From positions 124,001-188,000 of the forward strand of contig NZ_JRHC01000001.1 in NCBI RefSeq assembly GCF_000949475.1: 64,000 nt of DNA, read 5' to 3'. A program made the position numbers and the translations under genes. The notes beneath the pieces are model-generated. The model saw nothing but the letters and a program-made list of their open reading frames with translations, ran no database searches and had not been told where the DNA came from. Of this stretch, positions 42,545 through 63,979 are shown piece after piece. The DNA comes from Draconibacterium sediminis (GTDB taxonomy: Bacteria > Bacteroidota > Bacteroidia > Bacteroidales > Prolixibacteraceae). Within the stretch, counting starts at the first letter, position 1; each line of letters opens with the position of its first letter.

Positions 42545-42617
42545 ATCAGACCGGGATTTCGTCACTCATACCTGAGCGCCTCAATACTGACGAAACTTCG
42601 TTTGTCAGCATCTACGC
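42545..42617 (-). repeat. Hairpin unit and displaced permease C-terminal codons after the 802-residue permease
   Basis: Directly past the permease stop (TAG, 42620-42618) on the minus strand lie a hairpin (42608-42587, CTGAC-AAAC / GTTT-GTCAG) and then GAGGCGCTCAGGTATGAGTGA (42582-42562), which spells E-A-L-R-Y-E-stop, the same C-terminus as the permease, outside any gene. The same arrangement recurs at 56646-56708 and 61582-61645. Confidence 0.7.
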
Positions 42618-45026
42618 CTACTCATATCGTAAGGCTTCGACAGGATTTCGACTGGCTGCTCGATACGATTGAAAACTTACCGTAAACAAGGCAATCGCTA
42701 ATGCCAGAACTCCGGCCACCACAAAAATCCACCAACTCAAAGTGGTTTTATAGGCAAAATTCTCCAACCATTTATCCATGGCAAACCATGCCGCAGGACA
42801 GGCAATAACAAAGGCCAGCGCCACCCATTTAATGTAATCTTTATTAAGCAGTGTCAGAATTTCGGAAACGCGCGCGCCATTTACTTTTCGCACACCAATC
42901 TCTTTGGTACGGTTTTGTGTAATAATCAGTGCCAAACCAAACAAACCCATCGAGCAAATAAACAAGGCAATAAGCGTAAAAACCGATAACAAGCGAGCCT
43001 GTAGCAACTCGGCTTTGTACACGCGTTTATACATGGCATTAACGTGCTCGTACTGAAACGGATATTCGGGAAACAGATCATTCCACACCTTTCCCATATC
43101 GGCAAGCGCTTCATCTTTCATTCCGGGTTTAAACGACACCACAAAGTTTAAAAGCCATAATTTATCGCGTTTAAAAAGTACCAGCGGCTCTACCTGTTTT
43201 CGTAAACTCGACAAATGAAAGTCTTCAACCACACCGATAATTTTCCCTTTTGGTATGGTAATTCCCGATCCCGGAGATGAAAAAATAAGTTTGAAATCTT
43301 TACCAACAATATCCTCCGGATTCGAATAATGCAAGCGTTTCATGGCCGCTTTATTGATAATGTATTCACCCGAACCTTCATTGTCTTTGTTGTTTTCCGA
43401 AAAATTGGTGCCGGCCAAAAACTGCAGGTTGAATATCGATGCAAACGAATAATCGCAGGGGAAAACACCAATGCCATCAGAATTCTGCCCGGGATCTTCC
43501 GTTTCGTAACCTTCCATTTCAAACGGAAACATATCGTTTGCCTCGCCACCCGGTGGTTCCAACATGGCAGAAACCGATTCGATGCTGTTGTATTGCAGCA
43601 ATTCCTCTTTAAGCACGCCAAATTTTTGCTGAATACTGGCATGAACCGATTCAAAACAAATCACATTGTCTTGCTGAACGCCCATACTGTTTTTTAGCGC
43701 GTAGTTGGTTTGCCGCGAAATTACAATTACGGTAATGATTAAAGCAATGGAAAAAGCATATTGAAAAACGATTAAAACACGGCTGACGCCATTGCGGTGA
43801 ACCGCCACTGCAGATCCTCTGTTTCCACCCAGGCGGATAGTCGAGAAAACCGATTTCAGAACCGGAAGCATACCAAATACCAGCGCTAATAAACTAAATG
43901 CCAAAACCAACAGAATAATTGTGGTAGAATTCCCGGCCAGCAAATTCAGCTTATAAAAACGAATGATTCCGGTATTGACCGGCACCGACAGTAAAACGGT
44001 AAAAAACAAGGCGGCCGCAAGAATACAAATCCCCTCGAAAAAGAAATACTTAACCACCGCACTTTTTGAGGAGCCAAGTAGCTTGTTTATAAACAGATAT
44101 TTTGCACTGAAACCGCTCATCCCAATATTCAAGTTGGCGTAATTACTAATTGAAATTAGCAGCAAAATAAAAGCCGCAATGGCCAGTACATAAACGTTTC
44201 GGATGTTACTGTTTTCTTCGATCTCGCGGAGTTTATGCGAGTTTAAATGAATATCGGAAATCTTTTGCAAATGCACTTCGGTATCCATTTCCTCCGGATT
44301 GGTTTCGTTATTGTTTTTCAGGTAATCGTAAATTCCAGCCGTAACATTTTCAGGCGTAGTATTTTCGTTTAAAACCAGGTAGGTCCAGGCCCAGCCATAG
44401 GTAAACTGATCAGTCAGTGGTGTGGCCACAAAATCGGGATGAAAGTGACTGTTTGCCGGAAAATCTTCCATTACTCCTGCTATGGTAAAGTCCTGATCCT
44501 CGCCGTAATATTGCCCGGCCGGTAAAGTAAGCACCTCTCCCACCGGGTTCTTTTCTCCAAAAACCATTTTTGCAAAACTTTGGGTGACCACCATTGATGC
44601 CGGATTTTCAAGCACCGATTGTTTATCACCTATCAACATTTTTGCATCAAAAACATTAAAAAAAGTACTGTCGCACTCAAAAGCCTGCGCCACTTTGTAG
44701 TACCGCTGATCGTATTTCATTAAACCACCACGCACCGGACGTAAACGGACGAATTCCTCCACCTCCGGAAGCGCATCGCTCATTTCATGAATATACCCGG
44801 GATTGATGATGCGGGCAAAGTGTTTTCCGCTGAAAAAATCAGGATCCGTGGTTGTATAGCGGTAGATCTGAGCTGATTTCTGATGAAACGAATCGTAAGT
44901 CAACTCATTTTTCAGAAACAGCGCAATAAATATTATCCCGGTTAAAGCCAGACCAAGTCCGATTATTTTTACCAGGTTTAAAAACGGATGCTTTTGCAGG
45001 TTTCTTAATACAACTTTCAATACCAT
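42618..45026 (-). CDS. FtsX/MacB-like ABC transporter permease 1
   Basis: 802 residues, about eight membrane helices in a 1+3+1+3 pattern (near 18-38, 275-298, 325, 365, 418, 685, 735 and 765), with two large periplasmic MacB-type domains between. The cytoplasmic coupling motif KEIGVRKVNGARVSEIL and the ending AASRNPVEALRYE mark the Bacteroidota FtsX-like family. Such permeases use mechanotransmission to extrude peptides, drugs or lipoproteins, with an ATPase of the LolD/MacB type. It is 73 bp downstream of the only ATPase gene of the array and so is its most probable partner. Substrate unknown. Confidence 0.9.
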   Translation of the reverse strand: MVLKVVLRNLQKHPFLNLVKIIGLGLALTGIIFIALFLKNELTYDSFHQKSAQIYRYTTTDPDFFSGKHFARIINPGYIHEMSDALPEVEEFVRLRPVRGGLMKYDQRYYKVAQAFECDSTFFNVFDAKMLIGDKQSVLENPASMVVTQSFAKMVFGEKNPVGEVLTLPAGQYYGEDQDFTIAGVMEDFPANSHFHPDFVATPLTDQFTYGWAWTYLVLNENTTPENVTAGIYDYLKNNNETNPEEMDTEVHLQKISDIHLNSHKLREIEENSNIRNVYVLAIAAFILLLISISNYANLNIGMSGFSAKYLFINKLLGSSKSAVVKYFFFEGICILAAALFFTVLLSVPVNTGIIRFYKLNLLAGNSTTIILLVLAFSLLALVFGMLPVLKSVFSTIRLGGNRGSAVAVHRNGVSRVLIVFQYAFSIALIITVIVISRQTNYALKNSMGVQQDNVICFESVHASIQQKFGVLKEELLQYNSIESVSAMLEPPGGEANDMFPFEMEGYETEDPGQNSDGIGVFPCDYSFASIFNLQFLAGTNFSENNKDNEGSGEYIINKAAMKRLHYSNPEDIVGKDFKLIFSSPGSGITIPKGKIIGVVEDFHLSSLRKQVEPLVLFKRDKLWLLNFVVSFKPGMKDEALADMGKVWNDLFPEYPFQYEHVNAMYKRVYKAELLQARLLSVFTLIALFICSMGLFGLALIITQNRTKEIGVRKVNGARVSEILTLLNKDYIKWVALAFVIACPAAWFAMDKWLENFAYKTTLSWWIFVVAGVLALAIALFTVSFQSYRAASRNPVEALRYE

Positions 45027-45041
45027 CTGTGCTTAATTAAG

Positions 45042-45072
45042 CTGTCATTTCTCACTGCGTTCGAAAGGACAG
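45042..45072 (-). repeat. Short palindromic unit between ATPase and permease 1
   Basis: CTGTC-TTTC ... GAAA-GACAG stem-loop. It contains CGCAGTGAGAAATG, related to the GTAGTGAGAAGTGCG segment next to permease stops at 61.6 kb and 56.7 kb, so it is probably a member of the same dispersed repeat family. Confidence 0.4.
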
Positions 45073-45099
45073 ATATTTGAAACTTATTTTTGATAATTG

Positions 45100-45768
45100 C
45101 TATTCGTCTTCTTTCAAATAACCATCTTTTAAACGGACAATACGGTTTCCGTATTTTGCATTTTCTTCAGAGTGCGTCACCTGGATGATGGTCATTCCCT
45201 CATCGTTCAGTTTTTTCAGTAGCTCCATAATCATTTGTCCCTGCTCGCTGTGCAGGTTTCCTGTAGGCTCATCGGCCAGTAAAAGTTTCGGACTACCCAC
45301 AATTGCGCGTGCAATAGCTACCAGTTGTTGCTGACCACCCGACAACTGACTTGGGAACAGATCCTTTTTGGCCACAATGTTAAAGCGGTCAAGCATTTCG
45401 GCCACCAGGGCCTTACGTTCTTTGCCTTTCACCCCGCGATAAACCAACGGTGTTTCGATGTTTTCGTACACATTCATTTCCTCAATCAGATGAAAAGCCT
45501 GAAAAATAAAACCGATGTGACTACGATGGTACTGCACCTTTTGTTTTTCTTTTAACTGGTTGGCCGGCTGATCGAGGAACAAATATTCGCCTTCGTTGGG
45601 TTCGTCCAGAAAACCAATAATATTCAGTAAGGTTGATTTACCGGCACCACTGGGCCCCATAATTGAAACAAATTCGCCTTGATTAATATCAAGGTTTACT
45701 CCTTTTAATACAAAAGTTCGCTGAAACTTTGCGTCGTAGTATTTGTCGATGTTTTTTAGTTGTATCAT
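45100..45768 (-). CDS. ABC transporter ATP-binding protein (LolD/MacB-type)
   Basis: 222 residues, the usual size for stand-alone ATPases of this class. Walker A GPSGAGKST (38-46), Q-loop FIFQAFHLIEEM, signature LSGGQQQLVAIARAI (Leu where Arg is common), Walker B LLLADEP, D-loop/His switch VTHSEENA. It energises FtsX-like permeases by driving conformational change across the inner membrane. It is the only ATPase among seven permeases in this array, so either it serves several of them or further ATPases lie outside the window. It precedes permease 1 in the same operon. Confidence 0.93.
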   Translation of the reverse strand: MIQLKNIDKYYDAKFQRTFVLKGVNLDINQGEFVSIMGPSGAGKSTLLNIIGFLDEPNEGEYLFLDQPANQLKEKQKVQYHRSHIGFIFQAFHLIEEMNVYENIETPLVYRGVKGKERKALVAEMLDRFNIVAKKDLFPSQLSGGQQQLVAIARAIVGSPKLLLADEPTGNLHSEQGQMIMELLKKLNDEGMTIIQVTHSEENAKYGNRIVRLKDGYLKEDE

Positions 45769-45783
45769 GTTACTAGCTTATTA

Positions 45784-46250
45784 ATTGTCTGAATCCTGAT
45801 AATCAGGATTTAAAGATTTTCAGGATTAATGTTTTTTATACAGTCGTTTGGTTTGCAAGCTGGTAGAACCAAAATTCATGAGCAAACCAGTTTCTAAATC
45901 GTATGCTGTTAAGTAATTTAAACCTTGAGCGAGATGCACATCCTCAAGATTAATTATTGCTTTTAATTCAACCATAACTTTCTCTTCAATTATAAAATCT
46001 GCTCTACGCTTACCAACTTCGTACCCTTCGTAATAAATGGGCATTTCTTGTTCACGCTGATACGCGATTCCTGCATTGTCTAATTCAATAGCCAGGCATC
46101 TTTGATAAATTACCTCTTGGAATCCATTCCCCAGAGTGTTGTGCACCTTCATTGCACAACCAATAATTTTGTATGTCAGCTCATCATCTATCTTCGTCAT
46201 TTCCCTTTTTCAATCAAGCTAATCCTAATATCCTGTCCATCCTGATTCCG
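45784..46250 (-). mobile_element. GxxExxY cassette A with terminal inverted repeats
   Basis: A 467-bp unit holding one gene. Its inner 27-nt ends at 45801-45827 and 46221-46247 are inverted repeats of each other (20 of 27 match by eye; both carry AATCAGGAT outside and AGGATT inside). It lies between permease 2's stop codon, 7 bp away, and the ATPase start. A second copy lies at 51053-51521. Boundaries are estimated from where the two copies stop matching. No transposase is encoded. Confidence 0.6.
45826..46200 (-). CDS. GxxExxY protein, PD-(D/E)xK nuclease-like, copy A
   Basis: 124 residues. It carries the family motif at Gly26-Glu29-Tyr32 (GFQEVIY) and a candidate nuclease core Asp68-x9-Glu78-x-Lys80 (RRADFIIEEKVMVELKA), as in the PDDEXK_3-like proteins. 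The family is widespread and of unknown function; the nuclease reading is structural inference. It differs from copy B (51095) at 8 of 124 residues. Its stop codon overlaps the inner end of the left inverted repeat. It is transcribed in the same sense as the permeases, which probably allows read-through expression. Confidence 0.88.
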   Translation of the reverse strand: MTKIDDELTYKIIGCAMKVHNTLGNGFQEVIYQRCLAIELDNAGIAYQREQEMPIYYEGYEVGKRRADFIIEEKVMVELKAIINLEDVHLAQGLNYLTAYDLETGLLMNFGSTSLQTKRLYKKH

Positions 46251-46257
46251 AACACTT

Positions 46258-48675
46258 TTACTCATACTTCAAACTATCCACCGCACTCGAATGTGCTGTT
46301 TTTAGTGTTTGATAACTAACGGTTAACGATGCGATTGACACCAGCACCACAATGGGCAAAGCAAAAAACCACCAATTCATTTCCGTTCTGAATGCATACG
46401 ACTTCAGCCACTCATTCATTATAAAAAAGGCTAAGGGAATACCTAAAATTGCCGAATACAATGTTAAATAGATAAACTCGCTGGAAAGGTTGTAAAACAA
46501 ACTCGGCGTTGATGCTCCCAGAGCTTTTCGGACGCCCATTTCCTTTTTGCGAATTAATCCGGCAAACAGTGCCAGTGCCCATAATCCCAAACAAGCAATA
46601 AAAATGGCCATCAGTGCAAACAGCCCAAAAATGGTAGCAAATTTCCGATCAAGTGAATATTGCGCTTCATAAAACTGATCGGAAAAGAAATAATCAAAAG
46701 TTGATTCCGGGAAAAACTGATTCCAGATTTCGTTTACCTTACCCGAAGCAGAAGCAACATCAGCCCCCGATATTTTCAGTGATAAATATTTAGGTCGCAG
46801 CCAACCGATGCTGTTGTACATGATCATCATTATCGGGGTGTACGATTTATTCAGCGACTGCTGATGGTAATTTTCAACCACACCAATTACCTGGTAAGGT
46901 TCTGATTCGCCTTCAATTAAAACCTTCTGATCGATGGCATCGGCGTTATTCGCAAAACCCAGCTGTTTCACCGTTTCTTCGTTCAGAATAACCTTTTTTA
47001 TATCGTTGGTAAAAGTTTCGTCAAAACCTCTTCCTTCCAGAATATTCATTTCGTAAGTATCAATAAAATCGTAATCAACCGTTTGCATTTCGTACAGGCG
47101 GTTTTGTTTGGCGGCATCTTCAAACAAACGATTTGATGCGAAAAAGGCCACTTCCATTCCAGGCACCGCATTTGAAATAGCCACGTTTTTTACATCGGGC
47201 AAATCTTTTAACTGGCGCTTGAAACTCATGACTTTCTCCATTAAATTAGGAGTTTGTGCAGGAAATTTCACCACTAATGTTTTATCGATGTTTATACCCA
47301 GCGGCTGATTCTGCATGTATTTTAGCTGCGCATAAACCACCAGAGTTCCGCAAATTAAAACCAGCGAAGCCACAAACTGAAAAACCACCAAACCTTTTCG
47401 TACCATACCTGCCCGTTGTGAGTTCAGGTATTTTCCTTTCAATATAATTGCAGGCTTTACATTCGAAAGCACAAGCGATGGATACAGCCCGGAAAGAACG
47501 ATACCCGTTACAAGAAATAGTGTGATTAAGACCCAAAAGCGGGGCATGTATAAAATTGAAAAACCAATGGTTTTGCCGATAAACGAGTTAAATGAGGGAA
47601 TAAGAAGCAGGAATAGCCCAATTGAAACAGCCAGGGCAATAACATTTACCAGGGTTGATTCAATTAAAAATTGAATGATTAGTTGCTTTTTCTGTGCCCC
47701 CGACACCTTTCTCACACCTACCTCGCGTGCACGCTCCAGCGATCTCGAAGTAGTAAGATTGATGTAATTTATCCAGGCGATAAGAAGAATTGCCAGTGCA
47801 ATCAGAACCAGGGCTTTTACCGCTTTTTCGTTTCCTTTGGCTTCGCGTTCGTATTGTTTTTGCGGAGTCAGATGAATATCAGCCAACGGTTGTAATTCAA
47901 TGGCCCAGGTTTTATTTTTAAGTGCATCGGCTGTTTTGTATTTTTCCGACATGGCCGGAAAAGCATTCTCAATGCTTATGGGCGAAATACCTGGTTCCAG
48001 CTGAACATACGAATAGGTTTCGTGCAGGTACCAGAAGTTTTTAATCCAATCGGGTTGTGTATCCCACGACACAAAATAGTCGAAATTAAAATGGCTGTTA
48101 GCCGGAATATCTTCCAGCACGCCGGTTACTTCGCATTCATAAGCCTGGTTTAGCGTTCTGAACTTTAAAACTTTACCCAGCGGATTTTCATTCTTAAAAA
48201 ACTTATGGGCTGCCAATTGCGAGATCACTACTTTATTCGGACTGCTTAAGGCAGTTGACACATCTCCATCAATCAGTTTAAACGAGAAAATGGAAAAGAA
48301 AGAAGGTTCGGTAACAACAACCGAATTTTCGCGCGATTTATCCTCTTCGTAACTCACCATTTGCTCGGTGCTGTTAATGGCAATTCGCACGAAATCCTGA
48401 ATACCGGGAATGTTTTCTTTCATGGCACTGGCATAACCAAACGATGCCGTTGCCCAATCGTCGGTGAGCGTTTCGCCTTCGTAGAATTTACTTTCAACAC
48501 GATATATACGATCCGCATTTTCATGCATCGAGTCGTAGCTGCGCTCAAAACTTACATAGTTAAAAATAAGCAGAGCCACCACCATCCCAATTACTAAACC
48601 GGTAATATTTATAAAAGTGAAAAGCTTGTTTTTCAACAAGCTACGAAGTGCAACTTTCAGGTAATTTCTAAACAT
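46258..48675 (-). CDS. FtsX/MacB-like ABC transporter permease 2
   Basis: About 805 residues from the ATG at 48675 (MFRNYLKVALRSLLKNKLFTF), which matches the N-termini of its paralogues; the upstream ATG at 48714 would overlap permease 3. It has the paired MacB-type periplasmic domains and eight helices. The first coupling helix reads EVGVRKVSGAQKKQLI, the second EMGVRKALGASTPSLF, and it ends SSAVDSLKYE, the most divergent C-terminus of the seven. It follows permease 3 by 16 bp and is surely cotranscribed with it. Substrate unknown. Confidence 0.88.
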   Translation of the reverse strand: MFRNYLKVALRSLLKNKLFTFINITGLVIGMVVALLIFNYVSFERSYDSMHENADRIYRVESKFYEGETLTDDWATASFGYASAMKENIPGIQDFVRIAINSTEQMVSYEEDKSRENSVVVTEPSFFSIFSFKLIDGDVSTALSSPNKVVISQLAAHKFFKNENPLGKVLKFRTLNQAYECEVTGVLEDIPANSHFNFDYFVSWDTQPDWIKNFWYLHETYSYVQLEPGISPISIENAFPAMSEKYKTADALKNKTWAIELQPLADIHLTPQKQYEREAKGNEKAVKALVLIALAILLIAWINYINLTTSRSLERAREVGVRKVSGAQKKQLIIQFLIESTLVNVIALAVSIGLFLLLIPSFNSFIGKTIGFSILYMPRFWVLITLFLVTGIVLSGLYPSLVLSNVKPAIILKGKYLNSQRAGMVRKGLVVFQFVASLVLICGTLVVYAQLKYMQNQPLGINIDKTLVVKFPAQTPNLMEKVMSFKRQLKDLPDVKNVAISNAVPGMEVAFFASNRLFEDAAKQNRLYEMQTVDYDFIDTYEMNILEGRGFDETFTNDIKKVILNEETVKQLGFANNADAIDQKVLIEGESEPYQVIGVVENYHQQSLNKSYTPIMMIMYNSIGWLRPKYLSLKISGADVASASGKVNEIWNQFFPESTFDYFFSDQFYEAQYSLDRKFATIFGLFALMAIFIACLGLWALALFAGLIRKKEMGVRKALGASTPSLFYNLSSEFIYLTLYSAILGIPLAFFIMNEWLKSYAFRTEMNWWFFALPIVVLVSIASLTVSYQTLKTAHSSAVDSLKYE

Positions 48676-48691
48676 ATTTTTAATAAACTTT

Positions 48692-51034
48692 TTATTCGTA
48701 TCTGAGTGCCTCAACCGGATTTAACAACGATGCTTTTAATGCCTGATATCCACTCGACACTAAAGTTACAAAAACGGAAATTCCCAACACAAGCAGCAAA
48801 TCAAAAACTGTGAATTGATATTTAAAATGCCCCGGTGTTACGTTTTTCAGGAAGTTGGCCAATGGGTACACAATAATATTTGCCGCCACAACCAAAATAA
48901 TAAACTGCCGGGTAATTAACGGCAATATTTGTGCAGCTTGCGCTCCCTGGACCTTTCGAATTCCAATTTCCTTTATACGTCGCTGCGAGGCAAAAACAAC
49001 CAGCCCAAATAATCCCATGGCCGCAATTAACACCGCCATTATGGTAAAAAAAGCAAATGTATTTTTAGCGCTCGTCCAAATTTCCAGTGCCAGCCGGTAA
49101 GTTCCTACATCGTACCCGTTTACTTCAAAAAGAATATTCGGGAAAGCCTCGTTTAATACCGAGTTAATGTGTTCAAGGCTGCTTGTCATAGTATTCGGAT
49201 TCACCTTAAAAGTGAGATCGTTATTACTTGCAAAACCTTCATCGCGATACAACAGCACATACGGAATTATTGGATTATGTACATCTTCAATATTAAAATC
49301 TTTTATAACACCGATTACTGTAAAGTGGCCATCAATCATTTCAAGCCATTTCCCGATGGGGTTGTCCCAACCAAATTGTTTTACCGCCGTTTCGTTTATC
49401 AAACACGTTTTGGTTTCGGCTGAATAATCGGTAGAAAAGTTACGCCCATCCACCAATGTCATACTCATTGTATTCAAATAATTTTCGTCAGCCTGGTTCC
49501 ATCGTACATAAGCATGATCATCGGTCGGGCCACCTTCGTAATGAACACGTGTTCCCCAATTTGAATGCAACGGCGAATTAATCGATATAGTCATGTTCTC
49601 GATTCCGGGATTTTCAAGTATCCGCTGCCGAACCTGCTGATATGAAACCGTGCTATTCACACTTGGCAACTTACAATGCAACAGGTTATCTTTTGTGTAG
49701 CCAAGATCTTTGTTTTTCAGAAATGTAACCTGCTTGTACATCCAGATACTTGAGGTTAAGAGCACCACAGAAAGTATAAACTGAAGATAGACCATGGCAG
49801 TTAATCCACGTACTTTCCCTTTGTTGAAAGAACCTCTGCCTTTTAAAACATTTACAGGCTTTAAACGCGATATAAACAGAGCGGGATAGCTCCCTCCGAT
49901 AAATCCTGTTACAACAACCGTTGCCAGTAAAAACAACACAAACAGAGGATTTTGCAGCAACTGAAGTTCGATATTCCGGTTTACAACATTATTAAACAAG
50001 GGCAGTAAAAGATAAGCCAGGAACACTGCAAATGCCAGCGAGATTAGTGCAATTAACACCGCCTCGGTAAGAAACTGCACTCGCAAAATGTTTCGGTTGC
50101 TGCCCGACACTTTGCGAATACCAATTTCGACAGCACGCATGGTAGAAAACGATGTGGTTAGATTCATAAAACTCACACAGGCCAGCAAAAGAGTTAAAAT
50201 ACCAATGAAAGAGAAAAAGTAAATAATGGAGCCCCGGTCGTCGCGTACACGTTCTTTCAGGTGTAAATTGCTTAAGGGTTGAAGAAAGCTGACCCGTTTC
50301 GATTCCTTATCGTAACGTCGAATCACATCTGCTATTTTCTCATTCACTGTACCGGCCATAGCACCGGGTTTTAGCAACACAAAAATCTCGAACGAACTAT
50401 TGTCCCAGTTATCATTGTATCTTTTTACCAGGTCGGCATTCGACCGAAAATACGTGGCTACAATCGACGATTGTTCAGGAATATCCTGCATAATTCCGGT
50501 AACACGAAGCTCCTGTTTTTTCTCATCCAGAATTATTTTCCCCATCGCATCCTGTCCGGGAAAATATCTTTCTGCCATCGATTCACTAAGTACGATAGAA
50601 TTGGGATCGTCGAGTACATCTTCTTTATTTCCCCGAAGCAACTTAAACGAGAAAAAACCGAAAATTTCAGATGGCGCAAGCAGTCCGGTTTGCTCCTTAA
50701 AAACACGTTCCTCATCGGGCGACAAATACTCGTTCCAAATTTCGTTGGTGGCAATGGCATTCTCAACTTCAGGAACATTATCGCGAATGAATTTCGCCAT
50801 CGGAACAACGGATTGACCGGTTTCATCCATCCTGTCCGTCATTTTATACGATTGTACGCGATAAATTCTGTCGAAATTTACGTTGAACTTATCGTAGTCC
50901 ATTTCATACTGAACATAGCGGGCAACCAAAATAAAAGCAGCCAGCCCCACCGAAAGGCACAAAATCTGGATAGCAGAAAGCGTTTTCCGTCTTCTGATAT
51001 TTCGCCAGGCTATTAAAATAAAATGTTTAATCAT
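48692..51034 (-). CDS. FtsX/MacB-like ABC transporter permease 3
   Basis: 780 residues. N-terminal helix SAIQILCLSVGLAAFILVARYV, coupling motif EIGIRKVSGSNRNILRVQF in the first FtsX unit and EIGIRKVQGAQAAQIL in the second, ending LLNPVEALRYE. Same eight-helix, two-periplasmic-domain plan as the others. It is the only permease of the seven whose stop codon has no inserted DNA; the next permease starts 16 bp downstream. Cassette B lies directly upstream of its start codon. Confidence 0.88.
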   Translation of the reverse strand: MIKHFILIAWRNIRRRKTLSAIQILCLSVGLAAFILVARYVQYEMDYDKFNVNFDRIYRVQSYKMTDRMDETGQSVVPMAKFIRDNVPEVENAIATNEIWNEYLSPDEERVFKEQTGLLAPSEIFGFFSFKLLRGNKEDVLDDPNSIVLSESMAERYFPGQDAMGKIILDEKKQELRVTGIMQDIPEQSSIVATYFRSNADLVKRYNDNWDNSSFEIFVLLKPGAMAGTVNEKIADVIRRYDKESKRVSFLQPLSNLHLKERVRDDRGSIIYFFSFIGILTLLLACVSFMNLTTSFSTMRAVEIGIRKVSGSNRNILRVQFLTEAVLIALISLAFAVFLAYLLLPLFNNVVNRNIELQLLQNPLFVLFLLATVVVTGFIGGSYPALFISRLKPVNVLKGRGSFNKGKVRGLTAMVYLQFILSVVLLTSSIWMYKQVTFLKNKDLGYTKDNLLHCKLPSVNSTVSYQQVRQRILENPGIENMTISINSPLHSNWGTRVHYEGGPTDDHAYVRWNQADENYLNTMSMTLVDGRNFSTDYSAETKTCLINETAVKQFGWDNPIGKWLEMIDGHFTVIGVIKDFNIEDVHNPIIPYVLLYRDEGFASNNDLTFKVNPNTMTSSLEHINSVLNEAFPNILFEVNGYDVGTYRLALEIWTSAKNTFAFFTIMAVLIAAMGLFGLVVFASQRRIKEIGIRKVQGAQAAQILPLITRQFIILVVAANIIVYPLANFLKNVTPGHFKYQFTVFDLLLVLGISVFVTLVSSGYQALKASLLNPVEALRYE

Positions 51035-51052
51035 GGTTTTTGTTTTCTAATC

Positions 51053-51521
51053 ATTGTCTGAATCCGGACAATCAGGATTTAAAGATTTTCAGGATTAATG
51101 TTTTTTGTATAGTCTTTTGGTTTGCAGACTCGTTGAGCCAAAATTAATGAGCAAACCTATTTCTAAATTGTAAGCCGTTAGATAATTTAAGCCTTGAGCG
51201 AGATGAACATCCTCAAGGTTAATTATGGCTTTCAATTCAACCATTACCTTCTCTTCAATAATAAAATCTGCTCTGCGAGTGCCAACTTCGTAACCTTCAT
51301 AATAAATGGGCATTTCTTGTTCACGCTGATACACAATTCCTGCATTGTCTAGCTCAATAGCCAAGCATCTTTGGTAAATTACCTCCTGGAATCCATTCCC
51401 CAACGTGTTATGAACTTTCATTGCACTACCAATAATTTTGTATGTCAGTTCATCCTCTATCATCGTCATTTTCTTTTTTCAAATCATGTAAATCCTAAAA
51501 TCCTGTATATCCTGATTCTGA
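51053..51521 (-). mobile_element. GxxExxY cassette B with terminal inverted repeats
   Basis: Second copy of the cassette at 45784-46250. Inner 27-nt inverted ends at 51070-51096 and 51491-51517 match at 22 of 27 positions; the outer ends also start similarly (TGTCTGAATC / TGTCAGAATC). It sits 4-8 bp after the stop codon of permease 4, the same relative place as cassette A after permease 2, and in the same orientation. Confidence 0.62.
51095..51469 (-). CDS. GxxExxY protein, PD-(D/E)xK nuclease-like, copy B
   Basis: 124 residues, about 93-94% identical to copy A by direct comparison (differences at residues 3, 5, 15, 46, 64 and three near 100-107). The GxxExxY motif and the Asp68/Glu78/Lys80 set are conserved, so both copies seem to be under purifying selection or recently duplicated. 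Located between permease 4 and permease 3. Confidence 0.88.
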   Translation of the reverse strand: MTMIEDELTYKIIGSAMKVHNTLGNGFQEVIYQRCLAIELDNAGIVYQREQEMPIYYEGYEVGTRRADFIIEEKVMVELKAIINLEDVHLAQGLNYLTAYNLEIGLLINFGSTSLQTKRLYKKH

Positions 51522-51525
51522 CAGT

Positions 51526-55332: not shown

Positions 55333-55525
55333 TCATCGGGCTGAAAGCCCAGACTATTCTAACCCAACGGCAAAGCGAATGCGACACCTTGGGTTTCAGA
55401 CGCCTATCTTTACGTCGCCCTGTATGGGCAGACTAATAACCTGGGCTTTCAGCCCGATATCCTTTTTTGTTCATCTACCCAAGACGATGTCTTGGGCTCA
55501 ATTTAGCTGTCCTTTCAGGACGAAA
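55333..55525. repeat. Composite palindromic REP/BIME-like repeat
   Basis: Contains a perfect 18-bp inverted pair 55335-55352 / 55441-55458 (ATCGGGCTGAAAGCCCAG and its complement) enclosing further stem-loop material, then CCCAAGAC-GAT-GTCTTGGG (55478-55496) and GTCCT-TTC-AGGAC (55509-55521). These words are typical of REP elements mobilised by RAYT transposases in Bacteroidota. It fills most of the gap between the DUF4097-like and SMP-30 genes. No RAYT gene lies in the window. Confidence 0.6.
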
Positions 55526-55552
55526 AATCAGGATTGGACAATTTTAATGAAT

Positions 55553-56551: not shown

Positions 56552-56645
56552 CTTGTTCTCTTTTAGGTTTGACTAATACCTATAAAGGTATGAATAAGCT
56601 TCGTAATTTGTTTGGTAACTCCCTTAGCTACTTTGAAGTTTGGGC

Positions 56646-56708
56646 TTACTCATACCTAAATGCCTCAATACTGACGAACTTCGTTTGTCAGCATCTCCGC
56701 ATTTCTCA
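56646..56708 (-). repeat. Hairpin unit and displaced permease C-terminal codons after permease 5
   Basis: After the permease 5 stop come a TGAGAAATGCGG segment, the hairpin 56691-56671 (CTGAC-AAAC / GTT-GTCAG type) and the out-of-gene copy GAGGCATTTAGGTATGAGTAA (56666-56646: E-A-F-R-Y-E-stop). Confidence 0.7.
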
Positions 56709-59087
56709 CTACTCGTATCGAAGTGCTTCGACCGGATTCCTCGTTGCCGCCCTCCAGCTTTGCCAGCTAACGGTTAGTAATGCAATTCCCAAAGCCAGTA
56801 CTCCGGCAAGGGCAAATATCCACCAGCTTAAAGTAGTTTTATAAGCAAAGTTTTCAAGCCATTTATTCATGGCGTAGTATGCAATGGGGGTGGCAATTAT
56901 AAATGCTATGACTACCCATTTTATAATATTATTATTTAGAATAATCACTACTTCAGAAATTTTAGCACCGTTAATTTTTCGAATCCCAATTTCCTTTTTT
57001 CGTTGTAAAGCCGAAAAAGAGATTAGACCAAAAAGACCTAAGCAAGCTATAAATATCGCGATCAGGGTAAATATTTTAATCAATGAACTGAATTCAGTTT
57101 CGGTTTTATAAAGTTCCTCAAAACGTTCATCCAGAAAATGATATTCGAAAGGTACATCGGGAGAGAACTTCTTCCATGTGCTTTCAATTGTGGCAATTGT
57201 ATTTTCCAGATCCATCCCCGATACTTTAATGTTAATGCAAGTATTCCACGGCAGATAACAAAGCATTGAAGGTTTTATTTCGTGGTGCAAAGAGTTAATA
57301 TGGAAGTCCTTAATTATCCCAATAATCGTAATGTCATCTCCTAAAAAAGTTACGGTTGAGCCAATTGGGTCTTCTAACTCCATTTGCTTTACAAAACATT
57401 CATTTACCAACGCCGTGTTATTTAAGTCGTTTTTAATGGTTTTTGAGAAATTACGACCTGCGAGAAGTTCAATTCCAAATGTTTCGATGAAATCAGGATC
57501 AACCGTTGTAGCTTTATAATTTTTAAATTCACCATTCACTTTATGTTTGGAACCAATATTCAGATGGCCAACAAATGTTCCATTTGAACGTGCAACATTT
57601 TGAATCGATGGATTTGTCAATAATGATTCCCTAAATGACTGATATTGTTTACTTATACTGGCACCACCTGATAGGTAAATTAGGTGTTCTTTATCGAATC
57701 CCAGATTTTTAGATTTAATATAGTTCGCTTGTTTCGAGAATGTTAAAACCGCTATTATTAGAAAAATTGAAACAACAAATTGTGTTGTGATTAATACTTG
57801 TTTTAACCTATTTCCTTTCGTTCCTTTGTTGAATTCATTTTTTATACTCTTTACAGGTTTGAGCTTTGTAAGGAACCAGGCAGGATATAATCCTGAAATG
57901 AATCCAATCAGAATTAGTCCTCCAATCAGGAATACCAGTGCTTTGAATGTTTCACCAGGTGCAACCACGGATTTAAATCCGGTAAAGTTGAACAAATAGG
58001 GGTGAATGAAAAGAACTATAATTACTGCAATAATGCCAGCAATTGAAGTGATTAGTATTGACTCAGTTATAAATTGTTTGAATAAAGTACTTTTATCAGA
58101 ACCGATTATTTTTCGAATTCCTATTTCTTTTAAACGGGTGCTGGAAATGGCCAGTGACAAATTAATGTAGTTTATAATGGCTATTATTAAAATGACCAGT
58201 CCTATTAGTAATATCAGATAAACAGAAAAGCGTTTGTTGCTACCATGGAAATGTACCTCTTTTAGTGGAACAAAGTTTAATTTGTATTCCTCTGCACGCT
58301 GACTTCCTTTATCTACCTGCCAACGCTCAGCCATCAGATTTGTCCAGCATTCGGGTGTTTCGTTATTGAGTTGATGTACTGTTTCAGGTGAAGAAATTTT
58401 AACAAAGCTGCCAAATCCCCAGTTGACCCAATCTTCGCTAATATTTCCGTTTCTAATGTGGTGATAAATTATGGTTGACATTGAAATTATTCCATTGTAT
58501 GGAATTGATGAATTGGTAGGTGAGTCCTCAATTACACCGCTTACGGTGAAAGTATATTTTGCACTGGGGTAGTCACTTAAATAGGTAATTTGTTTACCTG
58601 TTGGGTTTTCGTTGCCAAACATTTTTCGCGACAAACGCTCTGATAAGATGATTGAATTTGGAAATTTCAGACCATTTTGGGCATCACCAAACAACATTTT
58701 AAAATCAAAAAAATCAAAGAAACTGCTGTCAGCAAAAATAAAATTCTCAGTTCTGATCGTTTCGTTTTCGTATTCTAAATAACCTTTATTTCCTCCACCA
58801 AACCATTCATCTACCCGAACAACATCTTCAATTCCGGCAATATTATCCTTTAAGAATAAGGCAACAGCCGGAGGTAAAGATCCATTATCGCCAAGATATA
58901 CCTTGTAAATATTGTTCTGCTGTTTGTGAAAGCGATCGAAACTGAATTGATGATTTACGTATCTTGCTATTAGTATAAAAACAGCGATGCCAATTGCTAG
59001 TCCGATAATGTTAATCGAAGAATGAAGCTTATTGCGCCAAATGGTTCGCAGGATTATTTTATGATTTATATTTCTTAATGAGTTCAT
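56709..59087 (-). CDS. FtsX/MacB-like ABC transporter permease 5
   Basis: 792 residues. N-terminal helix INIIGLAIGIAVFILIARYV; coupling motifs EIGIRKIIGSDKSTLFKQF and EIGIRKINGAKISEVVIIL; C-terminus AATRNPVEALRYE. Its upstream half is noticeably more AT-rich than the last 200 bp. That last stretch is near-identical in sequence to permeases 6 and 7, as if the 3' end had been replaced by gene conversion. Eight predicted helices and two periplasmic MacB-like domains. Substrate unknown. Confidence 0.88.
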   Translation of the reverse strand: MNSLRNINHKIILRTIWRNKLHSSINIIGLAIGIAVFILIARYVNHQFSFDRFHKQQNNIYKVYLGDNGSLPPAVALFLKDNIAGIEDVVRVDEWFGGGNKGYLEYENETIRTENFIFADSSFFDFFDFKMLFGDAQNGLKFPNSIILSERLSRKMFGNENPTGKQITYLSDYPSAKYTFTVSGVIEDSPTNSSIPYNGIISMSTIIYHHIRNGNISEDWVNWGFGSFVKISSPETVHQLNNETPECWTNLMAERWQVDKGSQRAEEYKLNFVPLKEVHFHGSNKRFSVYLILLIGLVILIIAIINYINLSLAISSTRLKEIGIRKIIGSDKSTLFKQFITESILITSIAGIIAVIIVLFIHPYLFNFTGFKSVVAPGETFKALVFLIGGLILIGFISGLYPAWFLTKLKPVKSIKNEFNKGTKGNRLKQVLITTQFVVSIFLIIAVLTFSKQANYIKSKNLGFDKEHLIYLSGGASISKQYQSFRESLLTNPSIQNVARSNGTFVGHLNIGSKHKVNGEFKNYKATTVDPDFIETFGIELLAGRNFSKTIKNDLNNTALVNECFVKQMELEDPIGSTVTFLGDDITIIGIIKDFHINSLHHEIKPSMLCYLPWNTCINIKVSGMDLENTIATIESTWKKFSPDVPFEYHFLDERFEELYKTETEFSSLIKIFTLIAIFIACLGLFGLISFSALQRKKEIGIRKINGAKISEVVIILNNNIIKWVVIAFIIATPIAYYAMNKWLENFAYKTTLSWWIFALAGVLALGIALLTVSWQSWRAATRNPVEALRYE

Positions 59088-59123
59088 TTTATTAGCTTAA
59101 ATATTTGATTTTTTTTTGTTTAG

Positions 59124-59176
59124 CTATTCGTACCTCAGCGCCTCCATCCCGATACGCTTCGCGATCGAGGATTTTG
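59124..59176 (-). repeat. Hairpin unit and displaced permease C-terminal codons after permease 6 (variant)
   Basis: Past the permease 6 stop the minus strand reads a different imperfect hairpin (59171-59146, ATCC...GATCGC / CGTATCGGGAT) and then GAGGCGCTGAGGTACGAATAG (59144-59124), again E-A-L-R-Y-E-stop. Confidence 0.6.
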
Positions 59177-61564
59177 TCACTCATACCTGAGTGCCTCAAC
59201 CGGGTTTCGTGTAGCAGCCCGCCAACTTTGCCAGCTAACAGTCAACAACGCAATTCCCAGCGCCAGCACCCCGGCAAGGGCAAATATCCACCAGCTTAGT
59301 GTGGTTTTATAGGCAAAGTTTTCGAGCCATTTATTCATAGCGTAGTATGCAATGGGCGTGGCAATTACAAAGGCAATAACCACTCTCATCACAAAGTCTT
59401 TGTTTAATAGCATCATTACTTCTGAAACTTTGGCGCCGTTTACTTTTCTGATACCAATTTCCTTGGTTCGCTTTTGCATGGCCAAAATAGAAAGAGCAAG
59501 CAAACCCATGCAGGCGATCAGAATTCCAATGCCTGCAAATACATTTAAACTGGCAGTCAGTTTACTTTCCGATTCGTACATTTGGTTGAGTTGGTCGTTT
59601 ACAAAACTGTATTCAAAAGGGTATTCAGGCACAAATTCTTCCCACAATGTTTTTATTTGATCCGGCACTGCCGGTACTCCGGGATTCATTCTTACAATAA
59701 TTTCATTGTAGTAAAACGGATTCATATTAAAACACATGGGAGTTATTTCACTGTGCAGCGATTTGAAGTTGAAATTTTCTACGATGCCAACTATCGTACC
59801 TTCCTGGTAAGCATATAATGTTTTCCCTATAGGATTATCAATCCCCATCTCATCAGCCGCTTTTTGGTTGATCACATAGGCACATTTTCTTTGGATGTCG
59901 TAATCAACTATGTCGTTTTTGAAGTCGCGATTAAATCCACGCCCCTCCACCATTTTAACACCTAGCGTTTCAAAATAATCGTAATAAACCGAGTTCCATT
60001 GCATGCTAACAGTTTCTCCTTCGGGCATTCCGTCACAACGAAAACCATCGGCTGATGTTTGTACATCCGAGGGCGAAGAAAAAGCGAGTGTTGCATTCTT
60101 TATCCCCTGCAATTTTTTTACTTCCTGTGCAAAAGCATCAAATTTATTCCCGTTTAATCCGTCGTCAACCGACATATTCAAAGGAATGGTTATTAATTCC
60201 TCCCTGGCGAATCCAGGGCTGTGTTTTTCCAGAAAATAAACCTGTTTATAAAATAAAGTAGTTATCGCCAACAGCACCACACTGATGGTAAATTGTCCAA
60301 CGATAAAGACATTTACCATTTTGGGTTGTTTGTGCAGCGATTGTTGATCTGCCTTAAAAATACGTACTGTTTTTTGTCTCGAAATTATCAAGGCAGGAAC
60401 AATCGAAGTTATAATTGCAAAAACAAAAATTACTCCTGTCAAAAAGAGTAAAAGTGTAAAATCAAACTCTTTTAAAGCTGGAAGAAATGAAAACCTGACT
60501 GTAAGAATAGAATTATACAGATAAATAAAAATTATTGAAATCGCCACGCTTATAGAGATATAAGATAATATCTCGCGAATTTGATCGCCGAAAATAATTG
60601 ATTTTGAGGCCCCGCAAACTTTTTTGACTCCCGTATTAATAGCTCGTTGCGATGCGGTTCCAATGTGGAGCAGAAGAAAATTTACTGCCGACATGGAAAG
60701 TATAATCAAGGCAACAATGGCCAAAAGATATAGGTAACTTTTGTTTGCCTGCGGTACCGATTCCCAGCCGGTTTGCATTTCAGTGTGTAACTTTTTTAAC
60801 GGTTGTAACGCCAGTTTATCGGGATTTTCTTCCACATGTGTCGTTAGGTAATCTGATACTTTTGTCGAAAAGGCTTCCTCTTCAATTTGGTTTTCGGCCA
60901 GGATAAATGTATGAATGTCGGATGGATAATTCCATGAAGGTTCAATCCAAACCTGGGTTAGTTTTGAGATACTTTCCAGGGGTAAAAGGATATCGCCACG
61001 AAAATTGGAATTCCTCGGGAAATCACTAAAAACCCCCTGAACTGTAAATAATCTGTCTTTGCCGATTTTTATCTGTTCCCCCACCGGGTCCTTTTCACCA
61101 AAATATTTTTTGGCTGCACTCCCCGATAATACAATAGAATTTGGCGAACTCAGGCAATTTGCCGCATCGCCTTTTTCAAGAGGAAATGAAAACAGCGAGA
61201 AGAAGTTTGGATCGGCAAAAATGGTTCGATTCTCATTAAACATTTTATCACCTGCAGTGAGTGCCAGGTAGCCCCAGTAAAAACTGGTGCGTGTAGCGTC
61301 CTTAATTTCCGGAAAACCTGATTTTAGGCTTTGTGCTAACGGCCCGTAAGTTGCTGCACCCGATAATTCATTTTTATCATTTTGAGTTAAAACACGGTAC
61401 ACCCGACTGGAATTTTCATATTGAGAATCATAGGTAAATTCCTGATAAACATGGCCCAAAACAATAATTACTACTGCCAAACCTATTGCCATCGACAAGA
61501 TATTCAGCAGGTTCAATCTACTGTTTTTTCTGAATCCGCGCAGGATGATTTTTAGTGTTTTCAT
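59177..61564 (-). CDS. FtsX/MacB-like ABC transporter permease 6
   Basis: 795 residues. First helix LNILSMAIGLAVVIIVLGHV; coupling motifs AINTGVKKVCGASKSIIF (degenerate in the first unit) and EIGIRKVNGAKVSEVM (intact in the second); C-terminus VSWQSWRAATRNPVEALRYE. The last 60 residues are nearly identical to permeases 5 and 7. The first coupling motif departs from the E-I-G-x-R-K consensus, so coupling to an ATPase may rely on the second. Eight predicted helices; no ATPase gene adjacent. Confidence 0.88.
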   Translation of the reverse strand: MKTLKIILRGFRKNSRLNLLNILSMAIGLAVVIIVLGHVYQEFTYDSQYENSSRVYRVLTQNDKNELSGAATYGPLAQSLKSGFPEIKDATRTSFYWGYLALTAGDKMFNENRTIFADPNFFSLFSFPLEKGDAANCLSSPNSIVLSGSAAKKYFGEKDPVGEQIKIGKDRLFTVQGVFSDFPRNSNFRGDILLPLESISKLTQVWIEPSWNYPSDIHTFILAENQIEEEAFSTKVSDYLTTHVEENPDKLALQPLKKLHTEMQTGWESVPQANKSYLYLLAIVALIILSMSAVNFLLLHIGTASQRAINTGVKKVCGASKSIIFGDQIREILSYISISVAISIIFIYLYNSILTVRFSFLPALKEFDFTLLLFLTGVIFVFAIITSIVPALIISRQKTVRIFKADQQSLHKQPKMVNVFIVGQFTISVVLLAITTLFYKQVYFLEKHSPGFAREELITIPLNMSVDDGLNGNKFDAFAQEVKKLQGIKNATLAFSSPSDVQTSADGFRCDGMPEGETVSMQWNSVYYDYFETLGVKMVEGRGFNRDFKNDIVDYDIQRKCAYVINQKAADEMGIDNPIGKTLYAYQEGTIVGIVENFNFKSLHSEITPMCFNMNPFYYNEIIVRMNPGVPAVPDQIKTLWEEFVPEYPFEYSFVNDQLNQMYESESKLTASLNVFAGIGILIACMGLLALSILAMQKRTKEIGIRKVNGAKVSEVMMLLNKDFVMRVVIAFVIATPIAYYAMNKWLENFAYKTTLSWWIFALAGVLALGIALLTVSWQSWRAATRNPVEALRYE

Positions 61565-61581
61565 TTTTTTGTCTTTCAGGT

Positions 61582-61645
61582 TTATTCATATCTCAAAGCC
61601 TCAATACTGACGAAACTTCGTTTGTCAGCATCTACGCACTTCTCA
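61582..61645 (-). repeat. Hairpin unit and displaced permease C-terminal codons after permease 7
   Basis: After the permease 7 stop: TGAGAAGTGCGTAGATG, which can pair with GCACTTC inside the permease's own last codons; then the hairpin 61628-61607; then GAGGCTTTGAGATATGAATAA (61602-61582: E-A-L-R-Y-E-stop). It is the closest relative of the unit at 42.6 kb. Confidence 0.7.
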
Positions 61646-63979
61646 CTACTCGTATCGAAGTGCTTCGACAGGATTTCGCGTTGCCGCCCGCCAGCTTTGC
61701 CAGCTAACGGTTAACAGGGCAATTCCCAAAGCCAGTATTCCGGCCAGGGCAAATATCCACCAGCTTAGTGTGGTTTTATAGGCAAAGTTTTCGAGCCATT
61801 TATTCATGGCGTAGTATGCAATGGGGGTGGCAATTACCAAAGCTACAATTACCCAAATCACAAAATCTTTATTCAGCAAAACCAGTATTTCCGAAACGGT
61901 TGCACCATTCACTTTGCGCACACCGATTTCTTTCGTCCGGTTTAAACTGATCAGGAAAATCTGACCTAAAATCCCCATACAAGTTAGCACAATTGCAATT
62001 ATTGAAAAGAATGTAATGGATTTGGCCAACTTATCTTCTTTTTGGTACATGGCCTGAAACTGGTCGTCGTAGAAAGTAAATTCCATGGGGTCGTCCGGTA
62101 ACAGGCGCCCCCAAACTTTCCGAAGTTCACTTATTTGCTGTCCAAGGTTCCCGGGAATCAGCCGCAGTGAAAGCGTATTATACTCGCGGTCGGATTCGTA
62201 AATCAACGCAACCGGACTTAAAGAAGAATGTAACGATTCAACGTTGAAATTATTCACCATCCCCACTACATCGTAACCACCTTCTCTTCCGTTGTTATAT
62301 TTTTTGCCAATAATATCTTCCCAGCCATAACGTTTTACGGCAGCTTCATTCATCAAACACGCCTTTCCTTTATCGCCCGACAAAAAATTTCGACCATCAA
62401 GTAGCTGAACGCCCATTGTTTCCAGGAAGTTTTCAGTTACATAAATACATTCGACCATAAACTCATCGTCTTCTACTCCACTTCCCATACTCATATTAAT
62501 TAGCCCGGGATAACCGTTACTCAAAGCACTGCCCGATACAAAAGGAAGATCGCTGAACTCGTTTCGCAATGTCGTCTGGTTTTCACTCAGCCACGGAAGT
62601 TCTACCCTCAACAAGTGCTCTTCGTTAAAACCTAAATCATAGTGTTTTACGTATTGTAATTGTTTAAAAATCAGCATCACAACTGCAATCAGGGCAATGG
62701 AAACTGTTAACTGAAAAGTAAGCATTAGCTGTTTACCGAATTGTTTTCCGTTTCTTTTGCGTCCTCCCTGCAGAAAATCGGCAATGTTAAACCGGGATAA
62801 AATATAGATAGGCGCTAAACTGTTCAGAAAAATAATGCCGGTAACGATACCCAAAACAACAGGCAATAATTGTTGAAGATTAACATCGGCAAGATGAATT
62901 TCTCTTCCAAATAAGGTTCCGGTTGCCGGTAAAAGCAACGAGACAAATAGCACCGAAATAATCAAAGCAATAAAAATTCCTAGGGTAACTTCAATAAAAG
63001 AATCGATGAGCAAATGTGGTTTCCCCGCGCCATTGGTTTTGTTGATGCCAATTTCTTTCAGTTTTGCGTATTGCATTGAAACCGTGTAATTGAGGTAATT
63101 AATACTCGAAAGGAGAATAATCAGAATTGCAATAGCCAAAAAGATAAACAGCATTTTTGAATTGCCTTTGCTATGCTCATCAGTCCAACCCAACTTTATT
63201 GGAAACAGATAGATATCGGATAAACTTTGCAGTGCCAGGCTGTCGGTAGTGGTATTAAACTGCCCGATAGAGGCATTCATTTTCTTTGCAAACTCATCGG
63301 GTTCGATATTGTCTTTTAACAACAGAAAGTGTTCGACTGGAAATATACAAACACCGTCATTGCAGGCTTGCGCCATCTGAAATTCTTCATTTTCGCTATT
63401 CAGCAATAGTTCGGCTTTAAAACTCGAATTATCGGGCAAATCCTGCATAACAGCAGTAACTGTTGCCGAGAAAAATTCTTCTTTAATCGTTTTTCCTAAC
63501 GGATTCTCATCCCCAAAAAGTTTTCTGGCTAATGACTCTGTAATTACTGCCGAGTTCAACTGACTAAAAGGCTTTTCATCCAGACTGGATAAAACGGGTA
63601 TTGAAAATACATTGAAAAAGTTATTGTTCGTTGAAACAGTGTACTCAACACGTGTATAATTTCTTGTTTCAGGATCTTTTAGTGTAAATGGAAAATACGA
63701 GTACCCGAGCGGACAGGCTTTTTCAACATCAGGGTATTGTTCGGCAATTACAGCGTTGATTTTGTAATCGAGTCCCGACTCATTCTTTTTGGCATCATAC
63801 ACGCGATAAATCTGTTCATGCCGGGTATAGTGTTTGTTCACATTGTGTTCAGCACTGTAAAACAAAGCTATTAAAATACAGGCCGTAAAACCAATGGCAA
63901 ACCCACCAATAATAAGCGATGAATACAACTTATTCTTCAACAAATTCCTGAATGCCAGTCTTATTTTGAATCGTAACAT
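61646..63979 (-). CDS. FtsX/MacB-like ABC transporter permease 7
   Basis: 777 residues, start 22 bp from the right edge of the window. N-terminal helix LIIGGFAIGFTACILIALFY; coupling motifs EIGINKTNGAGKPHLLID and EIGVRKVNGATVSEIL; C-terminus ATRNPVEALRYE. Eight predicted helices with two periplasmic MacB-like domains. Its upstream context, including any further permease or ATPase, is outside the window. Confidence 0.88.
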   Translation of the reverse strand: MLRFKIRLAFRNLLKNKLYSSLIIGGFAIGFTACILIALFYSAEHNVNKHYTRHEQIYRVYDAKKNESGLDYKINAVIAEQYPDVEKACPLGYSYFPFTLKDPETRNYTRVEYTVSTNNNFFNVFSIPVLSSLDEKPFSQLNSAVITESLARKLFGDENPLGKTIKEEFFSATVTAVMQDLPDNSSFKAELLLNSENEEFQMAQACNDGVCIFPVEHFLLLKDNIEPDEFAKKMNASIGQFNTTTDSLALQSLSDIYLFPIKLGWTDEHSKGNSKMLFIFLAIAILIILLSSINYLNYTVSMQYAKLKEIGINKTNGAGKPHLLIDSFIEVTLGIFIALIISVLFVSLLLPATGTLFGREIHLADVNLQQLLPVVLGIVTGIIFLNSLAPIYILSRFNIADFLQGGRKRNGKQFGKQLMLTFQLTVSIALIAVVMLIFKQLQYVKHYDLGFNEEHLLRVELPWLSENQTTLRNEFSDLPFVSGSALSNGYPGLINMSMGSGVEDDEFMVECIYVTENFLETMGVQLLDGRNFLSGDKGKACLMNEAAVKRYGWEDIIGKKYNNGREGGYDVVGMVNNFNVESLHSSLSPVALIYESDREYNTLSLRLIPGNLGQQISELRKVWGRLLPDDPMEFTFYDDQFQAMYQKEDKLAKSITFFSIIAIVLTCMGILGQIFLISLNRTKEIGVRKVNGATVSEILVLLNKDFVIWVIVALVIATPIAYYAMNKWLENFAYKTTLSWWIFALAGILALGIALLTVSWQSWRAATRNPVEALRYE

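Follow-up and report, generated by a model that had tools for sequence, protein, structure and literature searches.

The window analysed here, a stretch of 64,000 nucleotides from the genome of Draconibacterium sediminis, contains seven genes for FtsX/MacB_PCD permeases arranged in tandem on the minus strand, and the cluster extends past the window edge, with permeases P8, P9 and P10 located outside. A preliminary description had reported hairpins directly 3' of the stop codons of P1, P5, P6 and P7, all of which were recovered here. On the 3' side of each hairpin is a second, untranslated gene terminus in the orientation of the gene, giving the order first terminus (T1), hairpin, second terminus (T2). 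The features are located as follows.

42618..45026, minus strand: permease P1 (FtsX/MacB_PCD), with the end ..RNPVEALRYE
42585..42640, minus strand: unit of P1, consisting of EALRYE-stop codons, a short inverted piece and hairpin A, 56 bp
42587-42608: exact hairpin A in the unit of P1
42562..42584, minus strand: T2 of P1, IEALRYE-stop
45826..46200, minus strand: GxxExxY (PDDEXK_3) ORF behind P2, a separate kind of insert, located post-stop
48692..51034, minus strand: permease P3, with a single terminus, an empty site; the orthologue in the relative G024 is filled
51095..51469, minus strand: GxxExxY (PDDEXK_3) ORF behind P4, a separate kind of insert, located post-stop
56709..59087, minus strand: permease P5, with the end ..RNPVEALRYE
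56669..56731, minus strand: unit of P5, with hairpin A minus one base, 63 bp
56646..56668, minus strand: T2 of P5, IEAFRYE-stop
59177..61564, minus strand: permease P6, with the end ..RNPVEALRYE
59147..59199, minus strand: unit of P6, with hairpin B1, 53 bp
59124..59146, minus strand: T2 of P6, MEALRYE-stop
61646..63979, minus strand: permease P7, with the end ..RNPVEALRYE
61605..61668, minus strand: unit of P7, with hairpin A, 64 bp
61607-61628: exact hairpin A in the unit of P7
61582..61604, minus strand: T2 of P7, IEALRYE-stop

The units start in the Val codon of the N-P-V-E-A-L-R-Y-E terminus, 23 nt from the gene end with the stop codon included, and contain new codons for E-A-L-R-Y-E, a stop codon, an inverted piece and a second hairpin, with a length of 48-67 bp. 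The second hairpin belongs to type A, B1 or B2 or is a variant. The T2 sequences of P1, P5, P6 and P7 code for (I/M)EA(L/F)RYE-stop, and the right junction, from the hairpin end to the TNGARGC of T2, was constant in the units listed. The hairpins behind the four permeases are of two kinds, as we observed hairpin A at P1, P5 and P7, as well as at P9 and P10, and hairpin B1 at P6, with P10 also carrying a B2 variant. The sequence 3' of the T2 of P1 is CGAAATCCCGGTC, which resembles the beginning of a truncated B2 hairpin. Searches of the window allowing up to 3 mismatches yielded 2 matches to the hairpin A pattern versus 0.00 expected, and 7 matches to the terminus motif versus 0.17 expected, the latter corresponding to the functional ends of P3, P4 and P6 and the four second termini. 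Read-through or frameshifting into T2 is unlikely, since T2 does not keep one frame relative to the gene (the same at P1 and P6, another at P7) and T2 of P5, although in frame, is preceded by two adjoining stop codons. A known structured RNA was rejected since no Rfam family scored above its gathering score in the window.

The preliminary description had proposed a comparison of orthologous sites in related genomes, and such a comparison yielded an empty and a filled site for P3, the permease whose stop codon is, as reported, 16 bp from the next ATG. The gene bodies of D. sediminis (G000) and G024 are 94% identical and the downstream sequence is the same. A single terminus is present in G000, compared with T1, hairpin and T2 in G024, where T2 and the following sequence match G000. 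The host codons are kept up to AAATCCGGT, which places the unit inside the Val codon, and the left junction lies within about nine bases of common sequence. The hairpin units had been thought to be inserted after the stop codon; both the P3 pair and the reading of the units revealed that they start before it and bring a replacement end. The proposal that the hairpin units make use of the conserved terminal codons as their site was borne out. The older terminus is left downstream as a fossil, T2, and the protein end is unchanged. In G000, the P3 site either never received the unit or lost it cleanly. P3 was the one clean empty/filled pair found, and P10 was observed in three states, T-B2-T in G030, T-A-T-B2-T in G024 and T-B2-T-A-T in G000. 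Units at orthologous sites vary in presence, kind, number and order, and the protein end remains the same. Deletion of a neighbouring gene as the source of T2 may explain some of the changed downstream sequences but not P3, for which both the body and the downstream sequence are unchanged.

For a survey of relatives, we used 70 permease ends from stretches of six genomes of the genus, picked around matches to hairpin A. A second terminus was present within 85 nt at 28 of the 70 ends, both with up to 3 and with up to 4 mismatches (means of 0.05 and 0.6 in shuffled sequences), a fraction that is not a genome-wide rate because the stretches were picked by hairpin matches. With up to 2 mismatches the number was 25 of 70 (0.0 in shuffled sequences), and no second terminus was found on the opposite strand within 250 nt of the 70 ends. 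For three of the 28 (e10, e51 and e65), the first of the second termini has 3 mismatches, and e51 is without a clear hairpin. In G024, one end has its T2 at a distance of 183 bp, on the far side of a DUF559-type palindrome; this end is included in a wider set of 29 but lies outside the 28, and the stem comparison below is therefore between 28 filled and 41 empty ends. Some arrays contained two or three units, the longest being T-H-T-H-T-H-T in G005 and G030. By content, 24 of the ends had a unit only, and in 4 the unit was joined by a DUF559-type palindrome. A GxxExxY gene was present at 4 further ends, a DUF559-type palindrome at 3 (two of them with the gene) and a Y1 transposase at 1, and the motifs used recognised no such feature at the remaining 34. 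All 15 ends read in G010 were free of units, while a covariance model gave three matches elsewhere in this genome. The EALRYE end is present in 13 of the 15 G010 permeases read, and the terminus is therefore a feature of the protein that is independent of the unit. At another locus in D. sediminis (L201, C1 ~2326500), a permease end of the type NPAHTLRYE is followed by a word-repeat tract of GGATTGA/GGACTGA and no hairpin unit.

The covariance model was built from 19 units and applied with E values up to 0.01. It gave matches in 32 of 101 genomes, of which 25 were among the 37 genomes of the same genus (D. sediminis included) and 7 among the 24 of other genera of the family; there were none in 40 genomes of other families of the order with search filters that lose weak matches. 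We read 26 of the 30 match loci given, and in 22 of these the match ends a permease ORF with the stop codon at unit position 23, while the remaining 4 were either cut by contig ends (two) or unplaced (two).

To its own array's last terminus, T1 showed a likeness of 0.685, compared with 0.701 for the last termini of other arrays (28 arrays). Since T1 is no closer to the last terminus of its own array than to those of others, it is not a target duplication, and a transposon-like target-site duplication was rejected. Most of the codon differences between T1 and the last terminus were synonymous (113 of 137), which fits both having once been translated gene ends. An exact EALRYE-stop was found in 26 of the 28 first termini, with ESLRYE in the other 2; among the last termini it was kept in 15 and changed in 13.

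Folding of 35 units yielded imperfect palindromes with bulges, and the orientation of the unit was always that of the gene. In the first hairpin of many units, the Ala-Leu-Arg codons would pair with the post-stop piece, as in the stems GCACTTC/GAAGTGC, GCCTTAC/GTAAGGC, GCTCTCC/GGAGAGC and CACTCA/TGAGTG. Perfect stems of 6 bp or more were present at 18 of the 28 filled ends versus 1 of the 41 empty ends. After re-dealing the downstream pieces among the filled ends, a mean of 10 of 28 (maximum 14) still formed stems because the units are related. An alignment of 19 units contained 12 cells changed on both sides of a pair versus 3.9 after shuffling, and the covariation score was 0.205 versus 0.083; none of 500 shuffled alignments was as high in either measure, and both placed the proposed structure above slid versions. 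In the same 19 units there was no excess of pairs with change on both sides (3 versus 2.3, with 215 of 500 as high) or of further pair types (5 versus 6.0, with 457 of 500 as high). Pairing of the T1 codons with the post-stop piece is a prediction from alignment that these data support but do not prove.

The distribution of the hairpins differed between types. All 10 matches to hairpin B1 (up to 3 mismatches, six genomes) were located in permease arrays, and 10 of 11 matches to hairpin A (up to 2 mismatches, 101 genomes) were located beside the terminus motif. Nine of these 10 were directly behind a permease and one, in G010, was behind a permease end, a DUF559 gene and an ORF of 357 aa; the eleventh match (in G045) was elsewhere. 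With 3 mismatches there were 6 further matches to hairpin A, one at a permease end and five elsewhere. Hairpin B2 is a general palindrome with at least 6 of 54 matches (four genomes) at permeases; 30 of the 54 were read in context, and many of these were in word-repeat tracts. In D. sediminis itself (for example L079, L083, L087, L095 and L099), the palindrome AATCCCGACCGNAGCGTCGGG is often found after TTGAG or TTAAG, and it recurs within short word-repeat tracts (TATCCAG, GGCAAAAGT).

Beyond these genomes, hairpin A (up to 1 mismatch) did not occur in any of 394 further genomes sampled throughout the phylum. The GTDB collection (84,980 genomes) contained 12 contigs with an exact match to a slightly looser hairpin A pattern. 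One of these is a locus in Maribellus maritimus, six belong to a single Bacteroidales MAG (Ch23) and five have the match beside a tRNA gene. No tRNA was found on the Ch23 contigs, which mostly contain tandem copies, arranged head-to-tail, 31 bp apart and intergenic (L044-L046, L048, L050 and L052). On the five tRNA contigs, hairpin A is located between repeated pieces of the adjoining tRNA gene: in Maribacter aquimaris a 5' piece of tRNA-Met is present six times with five hairpins, in M. polysiphoniae a tRNA-Met 5' piece is present twice with one hairpin, two MAGs have tRNA-Ala 5' pieces, four times and twice, and a third MAG has the 16-nt 3' end of tRNA-Leu four times (with 0, 0, 1 and 3 mismatches). 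The same hairpin therefore accompanies other multicopy gene ends. A plasmid source was rejected since blastn gave no match of a 161-bp query in a plasmid collection.

The cassettes behind P2 and P4 were also confirmed, with sequence similarity starting 6 and 4 bp past the respective stop codons, and the two are 88% alike over 300 nt at a distance of 5.3 kb from each other. The idea that hairpins and cassettes share one relative position did not hold, since the units start in the Val codon, a site at which the GxxExxY and DUF559 cassettes were not found, and the cassettes are located post-stop. Of six GxxExxY genes in the D. sediminis genome, four are away from the permease cluster, as are three of four DUF559 genes, the other being behind P8, and at least three cassette genes elsewhere (L105, L107 and L110) begin no more than about 50 bp past the stop codon of another gene. 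GxxExxY genes may be over-represented at permeases (2 of 6), an excess that could be due to local copying given the similarity and proximity of the two copies. The DUF559 gene behind P8 (L026 2186-2605, minus strand) is accompanied by a CCCCAAACCCCTAAAGGGG palindrome, and similar palindromes occur behind T2 in four units of relatives and at one permease end in G010. In G024 (L060 11271-13709, minus strand), a permease end is followed by a DUF559-type palindrome element without an ORF, then by a repeated permease 3' piece of about 60 bp and the start of the same palindrome.

Occurrence at unrelated gene ends, named in the preliminary description as evidence against targeting, was seen for the cassettes but for neither hairpin A nor hairpin B1, while B2 is mostly found elsewhere. 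As an observation, the preliminary description is upheld for the hairpins, the cassettes and the P3 spacing and revised for the post-stop placement and the common position; as an interpretation, it holds for the terminal-codon site, whereas insertion of the hairpin units after the stop codon is wrong and a target common to two unrelated kinds of DNA is unsupported.

Synonymous differences were calculated for 28 orthologous permease pairs from codons for identical residues, excluding Met and Trp; the pairs come from overlapping sets of genomes and do not count as independent. The value was 0.536 for the last seven codons, 0.32 for codons 8-20 from the end, 0.374 for codons 21-50, 0.264 for codons 51-100 and 0.217 for codons 101-300. 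The end was thereby 2.5 times the body rate and was above the body in 24 of the 28 pairs. In neighbouring genes (39 orthologous pairs), the lowest value was that of the last seven codons (0.194 versus 0.274), and the end was above the body in 11 of 38 pairs. The downstream sequence was the same in 7 of the 28 permease pairs by the threshold used, with one more just under it, and most sites are not cleanly comparable because 21 of 28 pairs lack a recognisably common downstream sequence. In the P4 orthologues of G024 and G030, the identity is 92-100% until the last 24 nt, where it drops to 67%, and the sequence behind is different. In the clusters of G000, G005, G024 and G030, permease bodies are uncoupled from the downstream sequence. 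The gene end is most likely the exchanged part, a silent exchange junction, and the uncoupling in 21 of 28 pairs suggests that permease genes are frequently lost and reshuffled at their 3' ends.

A search for a mobilising enzyme in four genomes gave 31 matches to Y1 transposases. None of the 30 loci that were read had hairpins A, B1 or B2 within 1.5 kb of the Y1 gene, and an origin by RAYT/REP was rejected. One Y1 gene (IS200/RAYT-like) in G005 (L053 15304-17754, minus strand) is located right behind a permease stop codon with hairpins of its own (GTCGCGTAGCGAC..). No integron integrase (TIGR02249) scored over the cut-off in the four genomes, and an integron was rejected on these grounds. Tyrosine recombinases were present in all four genomes, and one of these, of 375-391 aa, matches most of the integron-integrase model below the cut-off.

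Rickettsia palindromic elements (RPE) are short palindromic inserts within coding sequences that add residues to the protein. The units are likewise short palindromic inserts in genes, but with them the protein keeps its terminal residues and the former gene end is displaced. In diversity-generating retroelements hairpins follow the target genes; this explanation was set aside since the termini encode the same residues. Integron cassettes with attC sites resemble the clusters in that co-oriented genes are each followed by an imperfect hairpin and in that gene order varies between strains; the units differ in including the last codons of the gene, and the integrase was lacking from the four genomes at the cut-off used. 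Closest in form are REP/REPIN sequences (RAYT) and CGTC-type repeats, which are short imperfect palindromes like the units (PMC3733652, PMC6006769). The 2013 survey (PMC3733652) reports CGTC repeats in Bacteroidetes that lack a transposase partner, and it places a little over 10% of repeats at the ends of coding regions. Unlike REP sequences, the units are confined to one kind of gene end, whose codons they include, and are not beside Y1 genes; the conserved GTAG/GTGG foot is absent, 3 of the 19 aligned units having GTAG ahead of the second hairpin, and A and B1 are not dispersed between unrelated genes, whereas the related B2 is. In principle, the units are most like e14 in icd of Escherichia coli, where an insert within the 3' end of the gene gives new terminal codons and the old icd end survives as a duplicate on the far side of the inserted DNA (PMC6379469). 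The units, too, provide a new gene end with the old one persisting beyond; however, e14 is a prophage of 15 kb that has an integrase and a single site, while the units are 48-67 bp, gene-free, multicopy and stacked. A search of the open-licence PMC literature gave no description of such units, an absence that is weak evidence.

As to how the units spread, we give roughly even chances to short-homology copying between multicopy gene ends. A hairpin would disturb replication or repair, after which the nascent strand would switch to the terminus of another copy of the multicopy gene end, copy this terminus together with its hairpin and return at the terminus of the recipient. No dedicated enzyme would then be needed, and arrays would gather only at conserved gene ends present in many copies, such as those of the permeases and of tRNA genes in other Bacteroidota. 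The graded rise in synonymous difference toward the gene end, absent in neighbouring genes, suits copied tracts of varying length. Copying is also consistent with second termini at 28 of 70 ends, with the P3 pair and the three states of P10, with T1 being no closer to the last terminus of its own array and differing from it mostly by synonymous codons, with the restriction of B1 (10 of 10) and A (10 of 11) to the terminus motif, with hairpin A between tRNA gene pieces in five contigs and with the 30 Y1 loci devoid of these hairpins. However, a site-specific enzyme would equally account for the right junction being constant and the left one at P3 being short, and the tyrosine recombinases in all four genomes tested provide candidates; moreover, there is a single clean empty/filled pair, 21 of 28 pairs do not share the downstream sequence, and the process is one that we infer.

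Such an enzyme is central to an explanation that we consider improbable, namely that the unit is a miniature mobile element, whose hairpins and terminus core G^TNGARGC would be recognised by a candidate recombinase or HUH transposase. The constant insertion point, the fixed orientation, the imperfect bulged hairpins, the use of tRNA gene ends as other sites and the many tyrosine recombinases would all fit, but neither the Y1 loci (0 of 30 with A, B1 or B2) nor the integron-integrase search in four genomes provided an enzyme, and the synonymous rise is graded up to about 100 codons upstream. The raised difference in the last 50-100 codons is instead in line with the somewhat more doubtful scenario of one or a few ancestral insertions spread by RecA gene conversion and unequal crossing-over between conserved 3' ends of adjacent permeases, with hairpins that would be retained for stabilising or punctuating the operon RNA; the uncoupling of body and downstream sequence in 21 of 28 pairs and the covariation of the first-hairpin stem in two measures also agree with it. 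Conversion of this kind is difficult to reconcile with P3, where sequence specific to the host runs up to within about nine bases of the unit, and with the P4 orthologues of G024 and G030, where the high identity falls only in the last 24 nt. Very improbable is the original proposal that permease stop codons are a common target at which two unrelated kinds of insert are placed post-stop. The tally of 70 ends, with units, GxxExxY genes, DUF559-type palindromes and a Y1 transposase, speaks for it, but the empty-site comparison largely refutes it, with units entering before the stop codon, and most GxxExxY and DUF559 genes of the genome are away from the cluster.

If copying between gene ends is the correct explanation, it may, tentatively and with less confidence than for the permeases themselves, represent a general protein-free process in Bacteroidota, in which hairpin-bearing copies of multicopy gene ends (the 3' ends of permease genes, the 5' or 3' ends of tRNA genes) would invade other copies without changing the product, the ends serving as junctions for gene loss and reshuffling. 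The sites before and after filling are natural tests of template switching versus an enzyme for the spread of hairpins. Repeats can become lodged at the ends of protein-coding genes by means of synonymous replacement codons that leave the protein unchanged, and the last codons and post-stop second termini of such genes are not necessarily vertically inherited.
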